Origin: a virus
Virus record (IMG/VR): IMGVR_UViG_3300025300_000036
Location: 1-38,539 of that record
DNA: 38,539 bases
Direction: 5' to 3' (one strand)
A program made the translations under genes and the position numbers. A model generated the notes under the pieces. The model saw only the letters and a program-made list of their open reading frames with translations. It did no database searches and was not told the DNA's origin. Below, piece by piece: positions 32,622-38,539 of this stretch. Position 1 is the stretch's first letter. The number at the start of each line of letters is the position of its first letter.

Positions 32622-32825
32622 TTACGCGAATATGAGATAGGCGATCGTCATCCCACTGAACAGGGTAAACAGGAATCGCCACCCTCGGTTCTCTGTTTCC
32701 ACCCTATACATATGACAGTCGCGGCAATACCCATCCTCCCGTGCAGCGACGAACGTGGGGTGGTGGTCATTTTTGCACGCCACACGGCGGAATTCGTTGA
32801 GTGTCTCAGCGCGGTTACTATTCAT
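32622..32825 (-). CDS. Small Cys/His protein with a C-terminal membrane helix
   Basis: A 67-residue protein. A Cys/His set (C-K-N-D-H-H, then C-R-D-C-H) could bind zinc, and the last 18 residues (FLFTLFSGMTIAYLIFA) form a hydrophobic helix. ATG 32825 overlaps the stop of the XF1762-type gene (ATGA), which decides the start over the upstream ATG at 32840. A zinc finger with a tail anchor could place a partner at the membrane. Confidence 0.72.
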   Translation of the reverse strand: MNSNRAETLNEFRRVACKNDHHPTFVAAREDGYCRDCHMYRVETENRGWRFLFTLFSGMTIAYLIFA

Positions 32826-33283
32826 AGTATACTTTCCCATCTGATCTTAGATTCAGCCGGAAACAATCCAATCTGTCGAGGGCGACTAGGGCAATCCCAT
32901 TCCCCTCTCATTTTCAGGGGCGTTGATTGCCATCCCGCTGCTTTCAGCGAGGTGCCTGGCTCTGACGCCAGCGTGTAGGTGATAATAAGTCTATAGCCCA
33001 TCGCCTTAGCGGCACGACGCGCTGCACCATACAACATAGAGGCGGCGTTGCGCCGTCCATTAGTACAGCAGCGGGTAGCTTCTGCTGTCCAGCCATTGTC
33101 TAGATTACGGGCTACGGGACGACCTACGGTAATTACACCCTCCAAAGAAGTTCCATCCACCACTCCAATAGAGAATTTATGTCCGATAGAGGGTTTATGG
33201 TGTCGGTGATAAGCCTTAACGTAAGCACTAGCTTCTCTCAGCGTGATAGGCTTGAGACGCAAGTGACCGTCCTCATTAGGCAT
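32822..33283 (-). CDS. XF1762 family protein (GNAT-like)
   Basis: A 153-residue protein with the characteristic XF1762 text: LKPITLREASAYVKAYHRHH, GHKFSIGVVD, VGRPVARNLD, TRCCTNGRRNAASMLYGAA and LASEPGTSLKAAGW. The family is common in phages and mobile elements, and the fold is considered related to GNAT acyltransferases. The substrate is unknown. It overlaps the helicase gene end by 8 bases and is coupled to the small Cys/His gene. Confidence 0.92.
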   Translation of the reverse strand: MPNEDGHLRLKPITLREASAYVKAYHRHHKPSIGHKFSIGVVDGTSLEGVITVGRPVARNLDNGWTAEATRCCTNGRRNAASMLYGAARRAAKAMGYRLIITYTLASEPGTSLKAAGWQSTPLKMRGEWDCPSRPRQIGLFPAESKIRWESIL

Positions 33284-34586
33284 AGTCCATCTCCTCTACG
33301 GCGGCGAGATTATCAAATCGTGTCCACACCGGAGTGAATCGGACTTTGACTGATCCGGTTGGGCCGTTGCGATGTTTGGCAACGATCAACTCTGCGATAC
33401 CAGTGTCCAGACTGTCAGGATTGACCATCTCATCGCGATATAAAAAAATCACGAGATCCGCATCCTGCTCGATCTGGCCAGACTCACGTAGATCCGCCAA
33501 TACCGGCCGTTTATCTGTCCGCAATTCGCTCTGGCGGTTCAACTGCGCGAGAGCGACAATGGGAATATCGAGTTCTTTTGCGAGGCCCTTCAGACCACGC
33601 GAAATCTCTGCAATTTCTTGTTGCCGCCCATCTCGCCGCTGACCGCGCATCAGTTGGAGGTAGTCGATCACGATTAACGACACCTCTTTTTCTCGTGTCA
33701 GTGATCGCGCCATGGCGCGGATATTGTCGAGGGTGAGATCACTCCGGTCTTCAATGACCACGGGGAGCGGTGAATTCCGCAGGGCGGATTCTGCTAGACG
33801 ATTACGCTCTTCCGCATTCATGCGCCCAGCCCGAACCACGTTCGAGTCAATACGGGCATCACTGCAGAGGATGCGTTGTGTAATCGCTGCCCGTGCCATT
33901 TCCAAGGAGAAAAAGGCGACCCGTTTCCCCGTCTCGCGTGCGGTCCGTATCGCGATTTGTAAGGCGAGTGATGTCTTCCCGAGCCCTGGTCGCGCAGCAA
34001 TCACAACGAGCTCGGAATCCTGAAATCCGCAGGTAATGCGATCCAGATCAATCAGTCCGGACGGGAGTCCGGTCAGCTCTCCGGTATGGCCATCAAGCGC
34101 ATCGACTTTCTCTAACGTCTCACGAATCGACTGTTCCAGCGTCCAGTAGGTTGGACGGCCGATAGTCGCCCGGTCTCGGACAATGTCCTCAATCGCCCCC
34201 AGCGCATCGAGTTTTCGATCTCCATCTGCGACTTCCAGCACTTTCTGCGCCTGACGATCTGCCGCTCTGCGCTTCGCGTCTTCCAGTGTGAGCTTGAGGT
34301 AATCCCCGTAATTAGCCGCACTCGGGACGGCCTCCTGTACGGTGAGTAGATAGGTGACCCCGCCAATGCTGTCTAACTCTCGTGCCGTGCGGAGCCCATG
34401 CTCGACGGTCACCAGATCGATAGCATCGCGTTGGTCGCCTAACTGACACATCGACTCCCATATTTTACGATGCGGTAGATAGCCGAAATCATCGGGTTCG
34501 ACTTGCGTGCGGCACGCATCCAGGACCGTGTTGTCCATCAGGATGCACGAGAGGAGGGCAGCTTCGTGGCTATACGTCTCCATGGC
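33276..34586 (-). CDS. dnaB: Replicative DNA helicase, DnaB family
   Basis: A 436-residue helicase that unwinds the phage fork. The N-terminal helical domain (EAALLSCILMDN, RKIWESM, IDLVTVEHGL) and the RecA-like domain are complete: Walker A ARPGLGKTS (197-205), catalytic Glu in FSLEM (about 225-229), Walker B LIVIDYLQLM (303-312), GLKGLAKELDIP (331-341) and the GQIEQDAD region with the arginine-finger-like RD later. GGAG eight bases before ATG 34586 sets the start. It overlaps the initiator gene upstream by 17 bases, as expected for a loader-helicase pair. Confidence 0.96.
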   Translation of the reverse strand, partial: AMETYSHEAALLSCILMDNTVLDACRTQVEPDDFGYLPHRKIWESMCQLGDQRDAIDLVTVEHGLRTARELDSIGGVTYLLTVQEAVPSAANYGDYLKLTLEDAKRRAADRQAQKVLEVADGDRKLDALGAIEDIVRDRATIGRPTYWTLEQSIRETLEKVDALDGHTGELTGLPSGLIDLDRITCGFQDSELVVIAARPGLGKTSLALQIAIRTARETGKRVAFFSLEMARAAITQRILCSDARIDSNVVRAGRMNAEERNRLAESALRNSPLPVVIEDRSDLTLDNIRAMARSLTREKEVSLIVIDYLQLMRGQRRDGRQQEIAEISRGLKGLAKELDIPIVALAQLNRQSELRTDKRPVLADLRESGQIEQDADLVIFLYRDEMVNPDSLDTGIAELIVAKHRNGPTGSVKVRFTPVWTRFDNLAAVEEMDYA

Positions 34587-35361
34587 ACGCTCCACCCACC
34601 TCACCCACTTTAGCCACGTCGGTCATCTCATCCTCAATATCGAGATCGTCGTCTATCTCGTCCACGATATGTTCGGTCATGGGCGGTTGGGGCGTATCCA
34701 GGTAGATTTTACACAATAAGAAGTCGGCGATGCGGGGGATGTACTGCCCGTCATCCGCCGTCCAGTTAGGCGAAGCCAGCCACCGTGCGATTCCGGATAG
34801 GATTGGCACCGTATGATTCCACCCCTGAATCTTATTCCACGCCCGTTCGGCATCACCCATCCGCACCCGCTTGCCGATAGGGTATGCCTCCCATACGGGG
34901 ATGAATCGTTCGGGATAAGCCGCAATTGATGTTTCTCCCGCGCCCACCACACTTTCTTTGTTGGTTTTCTCTTGGTGTATAGTCTTGTCTTGTATAGTCT
35001 TGTCTTGTTGTCGCCGCCGTTTTTGTTTTTTGGCTATTTGGTTTGTATGATATTCCGGGTACTTAACTACGAGAACAGACCCACTTTGTCGTGTAATCCA
35101 TTGACGTTCCTCCATGAAATCCAGCGCATTTCGGATACATTTCACTGCTGTACTGGGCCGCTTTGAGTTGGAAATGTACGCCAATTGTAGCGCGATCTCG
35201 TCGTAGGTGCCTTTGATGACACCTTCGTGCCGGTCAGCCTGGGAGAGCATTTCGATCCAGACCAGCGCCATCCAGTCGTGGTACTGCTCACGGAGAGATC
35301 GGATTTCAGGATCGCGGTTAAACTCGTGGGATATGCGGTGCCAATTATATCGTAGCGCCAT
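34570..35361 (-). CDS. Replication initiator / helicase loader
   Basis: A 263-residue protein. The N-terminal 100 residues look like the winged-helix part of phage replisome organisers (RYNWHRISHEFNRDPEIRSL...WMALVWIEML...). A basic, Gln/Lys-rich linker (KKQKRRRQQDKTIQDKTI) follows, then a C-terminal unit WEAYPIGKRVRMGDAERAW...GIARWLASPNWTADDGQYIPRIADFL of the type seen in loaders, and an acidic end. It should bind the origin and deliver DnaB, whose gene follows directly. GAGGAG lies upstream of the ATG. The linker holds a near-exact repeat of DKTI. Confidence 0.85.
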   Translation of the reverse strand: MALRYNWHRISHEFNRDPEIRSLREQYHDWMALVWIEMLSQADRHEGVIKGTYDEIALQLAYISNSKRPSTAVKCIRNALDFMEERQWITRQSGSVLVVKYPEYHTNQIAKKQKRRRQQDKTIQDKTIHQEKTNKESVVGAGETSIAAYPERFIPVWEAYPIGKRVRMGDAERAWNKIQGWNHTVPILSGIARWLASPNWTADDGQYIPRIADFLLCKIYLDTPQPPMTEHIVDEIDDDLDIEDEMTDVAKVGEVGGACHGDV

Positions 35362-35399
35362 GCTCGTGGTACTCCTCAGTGCAAAATGAACTTCCTATC

Positions 35400-35540
35400 A
35401 GGTTGTTGTACGGGCCAGAGGGCCGAAAGGATGTAAAGCCCTCTGGTCCCGTTATGGCGGACGACAAGGAGGCGGGGGAGATGAAACCGACCCCCGTCGT
35501 CCGCTCCCCAGGCATCCGAGAGGGGTACTCGGGGTGCCGT
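35400..35540 (-). other. Three hairpins in the leader of the replication genes
   Basis: The 206-base gap between the SpoVG-like and initiator genes holds three consecutive inverted repeats. They are GGCCAGAGGGC-type arms (35412-35423 with 35438-35449, one imperfect pair), GCGGACGAC/GTCGTCCGC with an inner GGGGG/CCCCC (35457-35504), and CCGAG/CTCGG with flanking GGCA/TGCC (35511-35538). They would form in the minus-strand mRNA. No T run follows, so they are not plain terminators. No riboswitch class was recognised. Confidence 0.55.
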
Positions 35541-35567
35541 GAGATGCAATCATTGTGACCCCTACAG

Positions 35568-35897
35568 TCAGAACGGGATGTCATCGGATGGGGCTTCCGT
35601 CCCATGATCACCGAGAGCTTCTAATGCCCGTTCCGCCTCTTCATTGCAGGCGTCCATCACGGCTTTATCCTCAATCCATATATACCGCTGACGCTTCTCA
35701 TCGCCGTTTTTATCGGTGTAGACTTCCCCCTCCGGGAAGCCAACAAATGGTCCATGCATACCATCAACGATCCGACAATTATTGATTGTGACCGGCCCGA
35801 TGGTGACATTGCAAAATGCTTTAAGTTTTGAGCCCTCTTTCCCCTTGTACGGACGCACCCGCCCCGGATCGATGGACACATCAATTTCGGTCGCCAT
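35568..35897 (-). CDS. SpoVG-like DNA-binding protein with SSB-like tail
   Basis: A 109-residue protein resembling SpoVG: RVRPYKGKEGSKLKAFCNVTIG, INNCRIVDGMHGPFVGFP. SpoVG proteins bind nucleic acid. The C-terminus is acidic and ends DDIPF, the tip with which bacterial SSBs recruit partner enzymes. Directly downstream of RecT and without any recognisable SSB gene in the window, it is a candidate functional SSB. GAGGAGG precedes the ATG; 17 bases overlap the RecT gene. Confidence 0.85.
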   Translation of the reverse strand: MATEIDVSIDPGRVRPYKGKEGSKLKAFCNVTIGPVTINNCRIVDGMHGPFVGFPEGEVYTDKNGDEKRQRYIWIEDKAVMDACNEEAERALEALGDHGTEAPSDDIPF

Positions 35898-36606
35898 TTG
35901 ATCCCTCCTCTGCTATGTGGTTGATAATGTCATCGGCCTGGTCGCCGGAATGTTCCCGATATGCCATGTTATCATGTTCTTCCACAGTTGCTAAGAGTGC
36001 GTTCCCTTTTTTCCGGGGTAAGACCTTCATTAGTCGTTTTAAGACGGTCTTTTTTGCCATCTCGTCAAAATGGTTCCGCCAAGCGGTGCTCTTCCCGCCG
36101 GGCGCTAAATTTCGGATCTCCTCGATTTCCTCGACGGTCATCGACTCCCAGAGTGTCCGCCCACTGCCCTCCAAGATCGCGAGGGCGTAATAGTCGGTGA
36201 TCTCGCCGCGCTCTGGGCCCATTGCAGGTTTGTGCCGAATGAATGCCTGTGATCCGCGATCACAGTCCCACTCGTCTCCCTCCCGCCGTACGCCAGCGTT
36301 AATCGACTCGATGACCGCTCCACGGTATAAGGCACCAATCATGCCCTTGTAGCCGACCTCAAGGGTGAGGGTTTTTCCTCGCGGCACCAAATAGACTTCT
36401 CCGTCCCGCAGTTCAAACCCGAGTGTGGCAAGCTGGACAGCGACCTGCCCAACAGACCGCCCATCGCATTGCGCGATGCGGGGGTTATTCCGGGCTGCGC
36501 CCAGTAATTGCTGACAGAGGCGTTTAGCTTGTTGTTCGCTCCCGTCCTCCATGGATTCCACGAGTGTCGGAACTAAGCCGTGTAAAAATTCGCTGAGACT
36601 AGCCAT
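35881..36606 (-). CDS. recT: RecT-family single-strand annealing protein
   Basis: A 241-residue annealase. Family features are LVPTLVESMEDG-like start, RLCQQLLGAARNNPRIAQCDGRSVGQVAVQLATLGFEL, VPRGKTLTLEVGYKGMIGALYR, and the W-R-N-H-F-D-E-M-A-K-K-T-V-L-K-R core. It anneals strands exposed by the exonuclease. GGGAGG before ATG 36606 decides the start against an in-frame upstream reading; the ATG overlaps the exonuclease stop region by 8 bases. Confidence 0.95.
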   Translation of the reverse strand: MASLSEFLHGLVPTLVESMEDGSEQQAKRLCQQLLGAARNNPRIAQCDGRSVGQVAVQLATLGFELRDGEVYLVPRGKTLTLEVGYKGMIGALYRGAVIESINAGVRREGDEWDCDRGSQAFIRHKPAMGPERGEITDYYALAILEGSGRTLWESMTVEEIEEIRNLAPGGKSTAWRNHFDEMAKKTVLKRLMKVLPRKKGNALLATVEEHDNMAYREHSGDQADDIINHIAEEGSNGDRN

Positions 36607-37555
36607 TGATATCCTCCCTGAATTTGAGTGCAATACGACGTGTTCCTGGGGTTTCTGTGGTGTGGCGTTGGACAAGATCTGCAGTTTTGTCCTGCCCTAA
36701 GACATCCTCTACTGAGGCAACAAATGTGCGTATGTCGATCTTCTGAGACGGCTTTGTCCGTCGATACGTCAGGACGAATTCCTCACTTTCAAATCCTGTG
36801 GCGTCCCCTATCTTTTTGGCAAATCCTTGTTTGAGATGCTCTTTTTCGGTTTTCAGATCTCGTTCCTCCGCAAGGATATCGCGGTAGCGACGGGCATCGA
36901 CGGTGACCGCCTCGGGGGGGACCAACATTTCCTCCGTGATGTCCTCGAATAGGTTTGAGAGATAGGCGGATGTTTGCGGCGATCCGTCAAGATCGGGCTC
37001 TTCATCGCCAAGGATGTAGCGGTCCAGATAGGCTTGACACTGGTCAACCAAGGTTTTGTGGAGTTCTGCGTTGGCGACGAGGTTATATTCATAGTAGCGG
37101 TTGCCCACCCAGGCGGCGATATCCCATCGTGGGATTTGCATCGCAATCATACACCAGTGTGCCTGCAGAAAAGCGTGGTTGGCAGGTTTCTCTTCGGACC
37201 AGTAGCGTTGACTGCCAAGGACGTATTTGCACTCCAGACCGCAGGAGCGATCGGCATAGACACGGTCAGGGGTACAAGCGATCCAGGGGTGCTGGGGATG
37301 GGTCACCAGCTGGTATCGGCCAGGATCGATCAACTCGACACCGTCATGTCTGCTGACGTAATCGTCCACGATGCGCGGCTCCATTTCCACGCCGAGACGC
37401 ATAGCTGGGCTGGGCGGACCATCTTCCTCTCGGCCCAATTTATCGCGCCAAACAGAGTGGGGTGATCCCCACGGGGCCAGCCCTAAGATTTTTGCCACAT
37501 CGGTTGCGGTAATGCACTTACGGCGTTGTGCTAACCAGGTCTCTTTCTGTTCCAT
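36599..37555 (-). CDS. YqaJ-type (lambda Exo-like) exonuclease
   Basis: A 318-residue nuclease of the PD-(D/E)xK superfamily. Recognisable are WLAQRRKCITATDVAKILGL at the start, ME-P-RIVDDY (about 58-66), ACTPDRV with D97, and LECK with E108 and K110. C-terminal sections are helical. It degrades one strand of double-stranded DNA ends and works with RecT, whose gene follows at once. GGGAG precedes ATG 37555; its first 38 bases overlap the Cys-rich gene. Confidence 0.94.
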   Translation of the reverse strand: MEQKETWLAQRRKCITATDVAKILGLAPWGSPHSVWRDKLGREEDGPPSPAMRLGVEMEPRIVDDYVSRHDGVELIDPGRYQLVTHPQHPWIACTPDRVYADRSCGLECKYVLGSQRYWSEEKPANHAFLQAHWCMIAMQIPRWDIAAWVGNRYYEYNLVANAELHKTLVDQCQAYLDRYILGDEEPDLDGSPQTSAYLSNLFEDITEEMLVPPEAVTVDARRYRDILAEERDLKTEKEHLKQGFAKKIGDATGFESEEFVLTYRRTKPSQKIDIRTFVASVEDVLGQDKTADLVQRHTTETPGTRRIALKFREDING

Positions 37556-37796
37556 CGGTACTCCCTTCGGTGATGACGTCCAGTAACGGGATTGCGTGTT
37601 CGCGGCGGTCCTCCATCAATTGCCGTGGGGGACTGGATGCCGGAATCCACATCGATATCGGGTGGGACGTGTAGCTCCCACATCCAGGACAACACGGATC
37701 GTTAATGTCGTAGATTTCCTGGCAAACGTCTGCAGGATTTTGACAGATCGAATTGCCGCATAAGACGGCTGTTGCGAGATGTAAACGAGTGGTCAT
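37518..37796 (-). CDS. Small Cys-rich protein
   Basis: A 92-residue protein. Cys residues in the first half (LCGNSICQNPADVC, then CCPGCG) suggest a zinc site; the rest is acidic and Pro-rich. ATG 37796 overlaps the methyltransferase stop as ATGA, with GGAGG about 15 bases upstream. No family was recognised. Confidence 0.72.
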   Translation of the reverse strand: MTTRLHLATAVLCGNSICQNPADVCQEIYDINDPCCPGCGSYTSHPISMWIPASSPPRQLMEDRREHAIPLLDVITEGSTDGTERDLVSTTP

Positions 37797-38539
37797 TTCT
37801 TTACGTCCTCCATGTCGGTTAATATACGCCATGCTGCTGCTGCCACTGCCGGTACTTGTCCATTCCCAAGGGCTTTAAGTCGGTCCACCCGAGCGGCCAC
37901 CCCATGAGCCACTCGACCCACGGCGGGTTCAGTTGCCCACCAGTTTGGTCTATTAGGCTTTCCCCGGTATGCGCCCCTCTCGCTCTCTTGTCGTCGGCTG
38001 TCTCCGGCGAGCCCCTGGTCGCATCGCCCGTGTTCGGTGTCGCCCATAGAGCCGTTATGCCTCTCAGATTCTTTTTTCGGTTGTCGTGTATTTGGCTCTT
38101 GCTGCCAACTGGTCCCGTCCCCTTGGAGTCGCTGGCCTTGGGGCTCGGCCACCGCACCGCATCCTGCAGGGTGATCTGCCGCTTGTGACCGCTGGGCCGA
38201 AGACGGCTGGGTGGAGTGGCTTCCGCCCCCCCGGCGGTGACCGCTTGGCGTCGGCCACATGTTCTGACGGGCCATCGTGTCCAGAGACGCAGCGGCCCTG
38301 TCCGCCCCATGCCCCCGCCCTGATTGGTGCCGTAGCTCACCGCACTCGGCGTCGGTAGCGAGTATCCAGAGCCGGTTCCGCTTATGCGGGGCACCAACAT
38401 GGTGCGCTCCCAGCACTGTCCATCGTGCATCATACCGGATTTCGGCCAGGTCACGGAGGATCGTGTCAAAATATCCGCTGGAAATAAGTCCAGGGACGTT
38501 TTCCAAGAATGCGTAGCGGGGTCGAACGAGACGAATGGT
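37793..38539 (-). CDS. C5 cytosine DNA methyltransferase, C-terminal part (frame A, cut by window edge)
   Basis: The frame runs off the right edge, so the N-terminal part with the catalytic PCQ motif is outside the window. Visible are motif IV RPRYAFLENVPGL, motif VIII VGAPHKRNRLWILA, and a motif X-like LKALGNGQVPAVAAAAW near the end, with a long variable region between that should include target recognition. The text WWATEPAVGRVAHGV is typical of phage Dcm-type enzymes. It would methylate cytosine in phage DNA, perhaps as protection from host nucleases. It is coupled to the next gene (ATGA). The same DNA carries another recognisable frame. Confidence 0.85.
   Translation of the reverse strand, partial: TIRLVRPRYAFLENVPGLISSGYFDTILRDLAEIRYDARWTVLGAHHVGAPHKRNRLWILATDAECGELRHQSGRGHGADRAAASLDTMARQNMWPTPSGHRRGGGSHSTQPSSAQRSQAADHPAGCGAVAEPQGQRLQGDGTSWQQEPNTRQPKKESERHNGSMGDTEHGRCDQGLAGDSRRQESERGAYRGKPNRPNWWATEPAVGRVAHGVAARVDRLKALGNGQVPAVAAAAWRILTDMEDVKK
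37819..38538 (-). CDS. Overlapping methyltransferase-associated reading frame (frame B, +1 relative to frame A)
   Basis: This frame is open from the window edge to a TAA at 37819. It reads PATHSWKTSLDLFP, VTWPKSGMMHDGQCWE, LVPRISGTGSGYSLPTPS, AVSYGTNQGGGMGRTG, WPSPKASDSKGTGPV, LWATPNTGDATRG and ends LNPPWVEWLMGWPLGWTDL plus KYRQWQQQHG. These are typical of a family of phage methyltransferase-like proteins. It is encoded by the same bases as frame A's motifs IV, VIII and X. One typical piece, SLDTMARQNMWPTPSG, is in frame A instead (38240-38287), next to a G7 run (38226-38232). A TTG at 38469 is one possible internal start. Either dual coding, frameshift-made isoforms or accumulated frameshifts would explain this. 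Confidence 0.5.
   Translation of the reverse strand, partial: PFVSFDPATHSWKTSLDLFPADILTRSSVTWPKSGMMHDGQCWERTMLVPRISGTGSGYSLPTPSAVSYGTNQGGGMGRTGPLRLWTRWPVRTCGRRQAVTAGGAEATPPSRLRPSGHKRQITLQDAVRWPSPKASDSKGTGPVGSKSQIHDNRKKNLRGITALWATPNTGDATRGSPETADDKRARGAHTGESLIDQTGGQLNPPWVEWLMGWPLGWTDLKPLGMDKYRQWQQQHGVY

Follow-up and report, generated by a model that had tools for sequence, protein, structure and literature searches.

Two overlapping reading frames probably encode the catalytic and the recognition part of a phage C5 cytosine methyltransferase

At the right-hand end of the virus record IMGVR_UViG_3300025300_000036 (IMG/VR), here analysed over its whole 38,539 bases and called the window, a minus-strand gene for a C5 cytosine methyltransferase (MTase) is open in two frames across the same DNA. 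The upstream part of the gene lies beyond the record, and both frames are open at the contig end: frame A with 248 amino acids and frame B, in +1 and starting one base downstream of A, with 239. Is frame B a by-product of the codons of A, a variant of the same protein or a protein in its own right, and in the last case, which part of the enzyme does it provide? From stop codons, substitution patterns and frame arrangements among relatives, we suggest that the enzyme is probably a heterodimer of two overlapping polypeptides encoded by overprinting, A being the catalytic and B the recognition subunit.

Frame A of the window is the 3' two thirds of the MTase, and matches Pfam DNA_methylase (PF00145, 9e-11) and phrog_363 (1.8e-30). 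Frame B matches phrog_1008, 'DNA methyltransferase' (1.2e-23), and more weakly phrog_26627 and phrog_35493, both of unknown function, while the Pfam and NCBIfam searches gave no family match for it. A first-pass annotation, made from the letters of the sequence, had described two superimposed open frames in this region and text in B that is characteristic of phage methyltransferase-type proteins. Both frames are indeed present on the minus strand, the strings quoted for them are found in the translations, and the phrog_1008 match agrees with the description of B. Its label of FLENV as motif IV is wrong, as FLENV is motif VI (ENV); motif IV is PCQ and lies upstream of the window.

The upstream DNA, which had been asked for in the same annotation, is provided by the near-identical contigs L091-L093, which share 2,744 bases with the window region at 0-2 differences. 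The missing 5' end of the gene is present in two of these contigs, which recur among the loci as L119 and L135. The full-length A in L135 has 353 amino acids and reads from its start FPCQPF, ENV and motif VIII, i.e., motifs I-VIII are in one chain, with PCQ seen through L135. Motif X is in the same chain (RLKALGNGQVP in the window), and its residues G330, N331, Q333 and V334 are invariant in 69 A sequences. The target-recognition region (TRD) and motif IX of a C5 MTase are not found in this chain together with I-VIII and X. Frame B in L135 is an open reading frame (ORF) of 324 codons, which opens after a stop at A-codon 19 and closes 26 bases before the A stop.

Viral contigs were scanned with B, and the best 80 of at least 597 were kept; in 77 of these 80 the motif X pattern stands in the A frame across the middle of the match. 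As B was the query, its openness in these loci proves nothing, and three sets were therefore fetched using motifs I-VIII of A only. The W set (window-like query) contains 29 loci including the two copies of the window itself, the Ac set (Acinetobacter phage query) the best 80 of 577 and the Lb set (Lacticaseibacillus phage query) the best 80 of 596. One partial W locus was removed by hand, leaving 188 loci, and 150 of them have a complete A ORF and motif X by pattern. Expected stop numbers were obtained by permuting synonymous codons within each gene. Between VIII and X, only 17 B stops are seen in the 150 loci against 274.8 expected, and all 17 are in six loci. Frame C of the same loci is not depleted of stops (1161 against 1098), and in the 45 loci below 45% GC (guanine plus cytosine) there are 3 B stops where 100.7 are expected.

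The depletion sets in sharply. Over the part of A that extends from its start to a point 101 codons short of the end of VIII, the Lb set has B stops at the neutral level (221, with 187 expected); beyond that point, and up to 80% of the distance to X, there are 3 where 342 are expected. In the W set the open stretch of B begins some 130 codons short of the end of VIII. In the Ac set it begins just after the A start, and between the second ten-codon bin and VIII there are 5 stops where about 206 are expected. For L135 alone, B has no stop from A-codon 60 to near the end against 4.4 expected (codon permutation, p = 0.002); its subregions are not significant (VIII to X, 0 against 1.6, p 0.14; IV to VIII, 0 against 1.7, p 0.12), so that the weight of the evidence is on the relatives. 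Of 12 other long ORFs of the window used as controls, three have a mild +1 deficit (92 against 105, 7 against 10.5 and 6 against 10.4, p 0.005-0.04), nine have none at p 0.05, and none is near zero. The reverse test used the 122 loci in which the IX text is read in B and motif X in A. When the B codons are permuted, 411 A stops are expected in the TRD and one is seen, leaving 121 loci with none. With stops depleted in B and in A alike, both frames are held open.

Selection on the residues can be followed through the positions of the overlapping codons, as in the +1 geometry position 1 of A is position 3 of B, and position 3 of A is position 2 of B. In close pairs (74 of 1,263 candidates, none from the W set), changes in motifs I-VIII are mostly at A position 3. 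In the TRD they are instead at B position 3 (Ac 0.438 vs 0.136; Lb 0.374 vs 0.111), likewise in motif IX, and in motif X they are back at A position 3. Among 21 disjoint pairs, the TRD favours B position 3 over A position 3 by 21:0 and motifs I-VIII by 0:21, while in motif IX B position 3 is favoured 18:1 with 2 ties. An anchored comparison of all pairs places A position 3 ahead at X and B position 3 ahead at IX in the W, Ac and Lb sets. Similarity of B at motif IX is also far above the level dictated by A (median z 6.5-7.0), with A only little above the level dictated by B (1.9-2.4), whereas in I-VIII A exceeds the B-dictated level by 14-15 and B the A-dictated level by 4-5. Mean TRD identity of random pairs, 0.24-0.31 in both frames, is uninformative because most pairs carry unrelated TRDs, and the close and disjoint pairs were used instead. 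Purifying selection is thus on A-coding in I-VIII and X and on B-coding in the TRD and motif IX.

The alignments of the two products are consistent with this pattern. No residue is in majority in the 69-row A alignment from VIII to the WW..EP..GRVA block, while PTPxAxD units are common to 79 B sequences (alignment A1), as is LNP.WVEWLMGWP, a core that is invariant almost throughout. The PTP array of B is homologous to the array of an in-frame mycobacteriophage MTase (hhalign 97.4%, E 1.2e-11, 76 columns, from a three-sequence alignment). The number of tandem PTPxAxD units varies among the 79 B sequences. Multispecific phage MTases carry several target-recognition units, and the variable number suggests that this may also be the case for the enzymes studied here.

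An AlphaFold model of the complete A (mean predicted local distance difference test, pLDDT, 69.7; predicted template modelling score 0.64) has most of residues 1-170 at about 90, residues 171-200 at 57-70 with one helix, residues 201-330, nearly devoid of secondary structure, at 35-58, and the motif X helix at about 80. It aligns to M.HhaI over 184 residues with a Z of 20.8 (VIA-align) and has the fold of the large domain; the extent of the alignment is what would be expected of a large domain alone. A by itself is therefore predicted to have a large-domain fold and no small domain.

Among relatives, both frames are annotated in Xanthomonas phage PhiXhv-5, an 'internal gene' is annotated in the B frame of Paenibacillus larvae phages, and in L008 and L006 frame B is the annotated methyltransferase. 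Among 79 loci found with B in bacterial and archaeal genomes, 58 are window-like, X stands in B in 5, a single locus is in frame and 15 are partial or other, as classified by pattern. In the mycobacteriophages Moonbeam, Filuzino and Batiatus, the array, the IX-like FPEWMMGWPAGW and X are all in one frame with I-VIII. Arthrobacter phage DrYang and the loci L070, L107, L138 and L141 have I-VIII in A and the TRD, IX and X in B, and in these split relatives A ends soon after VIII. The overprinted two-frame arrangement is common among related phages. In the mycobacteriophage loci L111-L113, the first PTP units after VIII are in frame B and later units in frame A, despite their in-frame class.

In C5 MTases of the M.HhaI type, the large domain is formed by motifs I-VIII and X, and the small domain by the variable region and IX, as described in an excerpt of PMC3404938. 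It follows that the two frames divide the enzyme at its domain boundary. We infer the following scheme. Frame A would be translated through and give the large domain with I-VIII, a long, unconserved and disordered linker and then motif X, which would pack back on the large domain. Frame B would have a translation of its own, beginning at an internal start in +1, and form the small domain with the TRD and motif IX. The two polypeptides would associate into an active heterodimer that methylates the phage DNA, most likely as a protection against host restriction.

The internal start can be located tentatively. The likeliest B start in the window copy is an ATG in B at A-codon 26, with GGAGGT upstream. 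At the codon that forms this site, the W set has an arginine in 11 contexts; its codon is AGG or AGA in the seven that have GYVE or GYIE and CGN in the four that lack this text, against a gene-wide background of AGG or AGA in 143 of 432 arginine codons, a contrast that was noticed after the fact and in which the GYVE/GYIE text is itself the source of the ATG. The ATG is present in six of the seven GYVE/GYIE contexts. In the Ac set an ATG is placed four bases after the A start in 65 of 70 loci, where 31 would be expected.

Several observations weigh against the heterodimer, or against parts of it. The sets contain near-duplicate loci (e.g. L131-L133) and the stop counts are not independent, which makes the 21 disjoint pairs the better-controlled test. 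By these pairs, motif X is unclear (6:13 for B against A position 3, p 0.17), and B too exceeds the A-dictated similarity at X in the Ac and W sets. The proposed ATG is missing in L123, and L130, which has no arginine at the site, has a B stop right after the ATG; moreover, ATG is above expectation at other B positions than the proposed starts, and the starts are therefore to be taken as putative. An AlphaFold model of B alone (from L025, with the 79-row alignment) is poor, with a pLDDT of 54, so that the small-domain fold of B also remains putative. In a PDB search the B profile had two matches (E 0.28 and 5.3), neither of them a methyltransferase, and motif IX of an in-frame relative is colinear with M.HhaI 272-291 but at a negative score. 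Other loci have different frame arrangements: L236, L241 and L265 combine a motif IX in A with a third-frame X, L242 has IX in C and X in B, L160, L169, L185 and L191 are flagged with other frame combinations by pattern only, and L077 has two A stops in the TRD. L236, L241, L265 and L242 would need three frames, through decay, phase variation or sequencing error. Finally, a stretch of B in the window itself looks frame-slipped, because the family text (SLDTMARQNMWPTPSGHRRGGG) is found in frame A at this place. It is inside the first recognition unit of B, the text returns to B after it, and A and B are both open across it. The slipped stretch is common to L091-L093, while L110 reads that family text in one frame.

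What else could explain two open frames? One possibility is that A alone is a working MTase with its own variable region and a substitute for motif IX, and that B, overprinted on it, encodes a distinct protein with a function of its own. I-VIII and X are in one open A frame, and A is the single annotated coding sequence in several annotated phages. We consider this unlikely, as the variable region of A has no majority residue, is predicted to be disordered and evolves at the wobble position of B, and as the B text is in-frame MTase sequence in mycobacteriophages. Alternatively, the two frames could be joined into one conventional, monomeric MTase by two programmed frameshifts, from A to B after VIII and from B to A before X. 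The selected order, A for I-VIII, B for the TRD and IX, and A for X, is indeed that of a conventional C5 MTase, and this explanation was considered because X stands in B in L070, L107, L138 and L141. It is quite unlikely, as a joined chain could do without an open B over the last 100 or so codons up to the end of VIII (Lb, 3 against 342 stops from there on) and without an open A through the TRD (1 against 411), and as A ends at variable distances after VIII in relatives with X in B. Programmed frameshifting was rejected as the main model since both frames are open beyond what the joined chain needs, no frameshift signal having been searched for.

An ancestral in-frame MTase in decay, with compensating frame slips and its old frame lingering, would account for the slipped B stretch of the window, the odd frames of L236, L241, L265 and L242 and the interrupted A of L077. 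Yet both frames are open and the B residues are conserved over a large divergence in three separately fetched sets, including loci below 45% GC, which makes a fossil very unlikely. Least probable of all, to the point of being nearly dismissed, is that B is a shadow whose similarity is a by-product of the conserved motifs and codon usage of A. This is true in part: SWKTS and WPKSGMM are opposite conserved motifs of A, L091 and L092 differ more in the upstream part of B than in A (by eye), and the excess of B in I-VIII is much below that of A. The 17 stops against 275 expected, their sharp onset, the wobble switch (21:0) and a z of about 7 at motif IX are against it. The shadow is rejected for the region from the TRD to IX and is a fair description of much of the B text opposite motifs IV-VIII. 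The first-pass annotation would have taken B for a shadow if homologues had A intact and B full of stops; 144 of the 150 loci fetched with A have no B stop from VIII to X. Its proposal of long-standing overprinting is strongly supported by the stop depletion, the onset, the wobble switch and the openness of A. Two C-terminal variants chosen by frameshifting, which it had also offered, do not agree with a B that is open far upstream of the switch and an A that is open through the variable region. Internal starts, the other route that it named, probably apply to B; what B contributes, however, is another part of the enzyme and not a variant of the C-terminus of A.

How does the proposed heterodimer compare with known systems? 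In the two-polypeptide enzyme M.EcoHK31I (YGGCCR), the small subunit is reportedly read from another frame inside the large gene (work of Lee et al. from 1995), which fits a motif IX that lies between VIII and X. The window gene is like M.EcoHK31I in that its large polypeptide carries I-VIII and X and in that IX belongs to a second polypeptide, the latter at the level of coding and selection only (18:1, 2 ties). From its sequence, in which both frames are kept open, it would also share the second frame inside the first gene that is reported for M.EcoHK31I. The two differ, as compared by description, in the TRD, which is predicted to be in the large polypeptide of M.EcoHK31I (PMC3404938, in excerpt), while the variable region of the window is by selection in B. 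The same excerpt gives M.EcoHK31I and M.AquI as two-polypeptide C5 MTases and only motif IX for the M.EcoHK31I small subunit. M.EcoHK31I is called 'naturally split' in an excerpt of PMC3439449, and in one of PMC6456624 EcoHK31I is only listed in a codon table. No EcoHK31I-named record is among the 40 listed of 384 plasmid matches to the A protein of a Salmonella phage.

M.AquI, with its alpha and beta chains, is similar in having two polypeptides and I-VIII in the larger one (PMC3404938, same excerpt), but its motif X is in the small subunit while that of the window is in A. L070, L107, L138, L141 and DrYang have the M.AquI kind of split in the form of overlapping frames. Phages of the Streptococcus thermophilus 5093 group are described as having a 'total overlap' of C5 MTases that are read in different frames, and a pneumococcal phage and Tn5252 are cited alongside (PMC5601072, in part). 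Here, as compared by description, two MTase-like products likewise come from the same DNA, and section 19 of that paper, which reports the overlap, gives no motif assignment, selection test or mechanism for it. In the Paenibacillus larvae phages Shelly (gp56) and Diva (gp50), a +1 ORF inside the MTase gene is annotated as DNA methyltransferase, a likeness of annotation only, as the record assigns it nothing beyond this. The ShiLan domain, an out-of-frame HNH endonuclease in phage methylases (available portion of PMC11855218), is also an alternative-frame product in a phage methylase gene, and its methylase-frame reading is poorly structured; it differs in being a mobile endonuclease insertion and not a part of the methyltransferase. 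Similar in spirit to these insertions, as that portion describes them, is the HNH placement in L110, where positions 2-730 have related MTase PTP and IX text, then an HNH endonuclease (by eye) and then motif X in another frame. Two-polypeptide C5 MTases and their total overlap are thus already known, while the breadth, the two-way selection evidence and the domain assignment are new; in the literature searched, we found no paper that assigns the variable region or motifs to B or gives a selection test.

We lean towards a wider view, in which a large share of the phage orphan C5 MTases that now carry the annotation of a single protein are obligate heterodimers, in phages and genomes that range from Acinetobacter, Pseudomonas and Lacticaseibacillus to Verrucomicrobia; the recognition subunit would be overprinted on the disordered linker of the catalytic one. 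If this is true, the annotated frame of many phage MTases is wrong exactly at the part that encodes specificity. Cloning of the single ORF and specificity prediction from the annotated protein would read the wrong frame: the annotated ORF expressed alone would fail or mislead, and prediction would need frame B. Target specificity would evolve in the B subunit, in which the PTPxAxD units are arrayed in tandem, and the genes would be a clean natural example of an overprinted pair where the frame under selection changes at the border between two protein domains.

The coordinates of all features in the window are collected in Table 1.

Table 1. Positions of the two frames and their motifs in the window; motifs VI and VIII are named as is usual for C5 MTases.
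Feature	Position	Strand	Basis
Frame A, C5-MTase large (catalytic) polypeptide, 3' part	37793..38539	-	PF00145, phrog_363; codons 1-105 beyond contig end
Frame B (+1), putative overlapping polypeptide with TRD and motif IX	37819..38538	-	phrog_1008, stops, substitution pattern
Frame A FLENVPGL, motif VI (ENV)	38486..38509	-	window translation
Frame A motif VIII (GAPHKRNRLWILA)	38357..38395	-	window translation
Frame B first PTPxA unit (SLPTPSA)	38341..38361	-	B alignment and window translation
Frame B stretch, looks frame-slipped	38191..38286	-	family text (SLDTMARQNMWPTPSGHRRGGGSHS) in frame A at 38287-38213; by eye
Frame B second recognition unit (..WPSPKASDSKGTGPVGSKSQIHDNRKKNLRG)	38059..38190	-	similar text in L003, L010
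Frame B third unit (WATPNTGDATRG)	38011..38046	-	window translation
Frame B motif IX (LNPPWVEWLMGWPLGWTDL)	37876..37932	-	invariant core in 79 B sequences; B-coded substitution pattern
Frame A motif X (RLKALGNGQVPAVAAAAW)	37829..37882	-	window translation, A alignment; A-coded substitution pattern

The MTase gene is adjoined by an early module (33279-37555, minus strand) with a DnaB helicase, RecT, a YqaJ recombinase and a sub-threshold match to a replisome organiser. Because this replication and recombination module is next to it, the MTase looks like a phage orphan enzyme. On the same strand, an ORF of 153 amino acids (32825-33283) has a weak match to the Mom family (Pfam 3.6e-5, below the cut-off) and is possibly a second DNA-modification gene.
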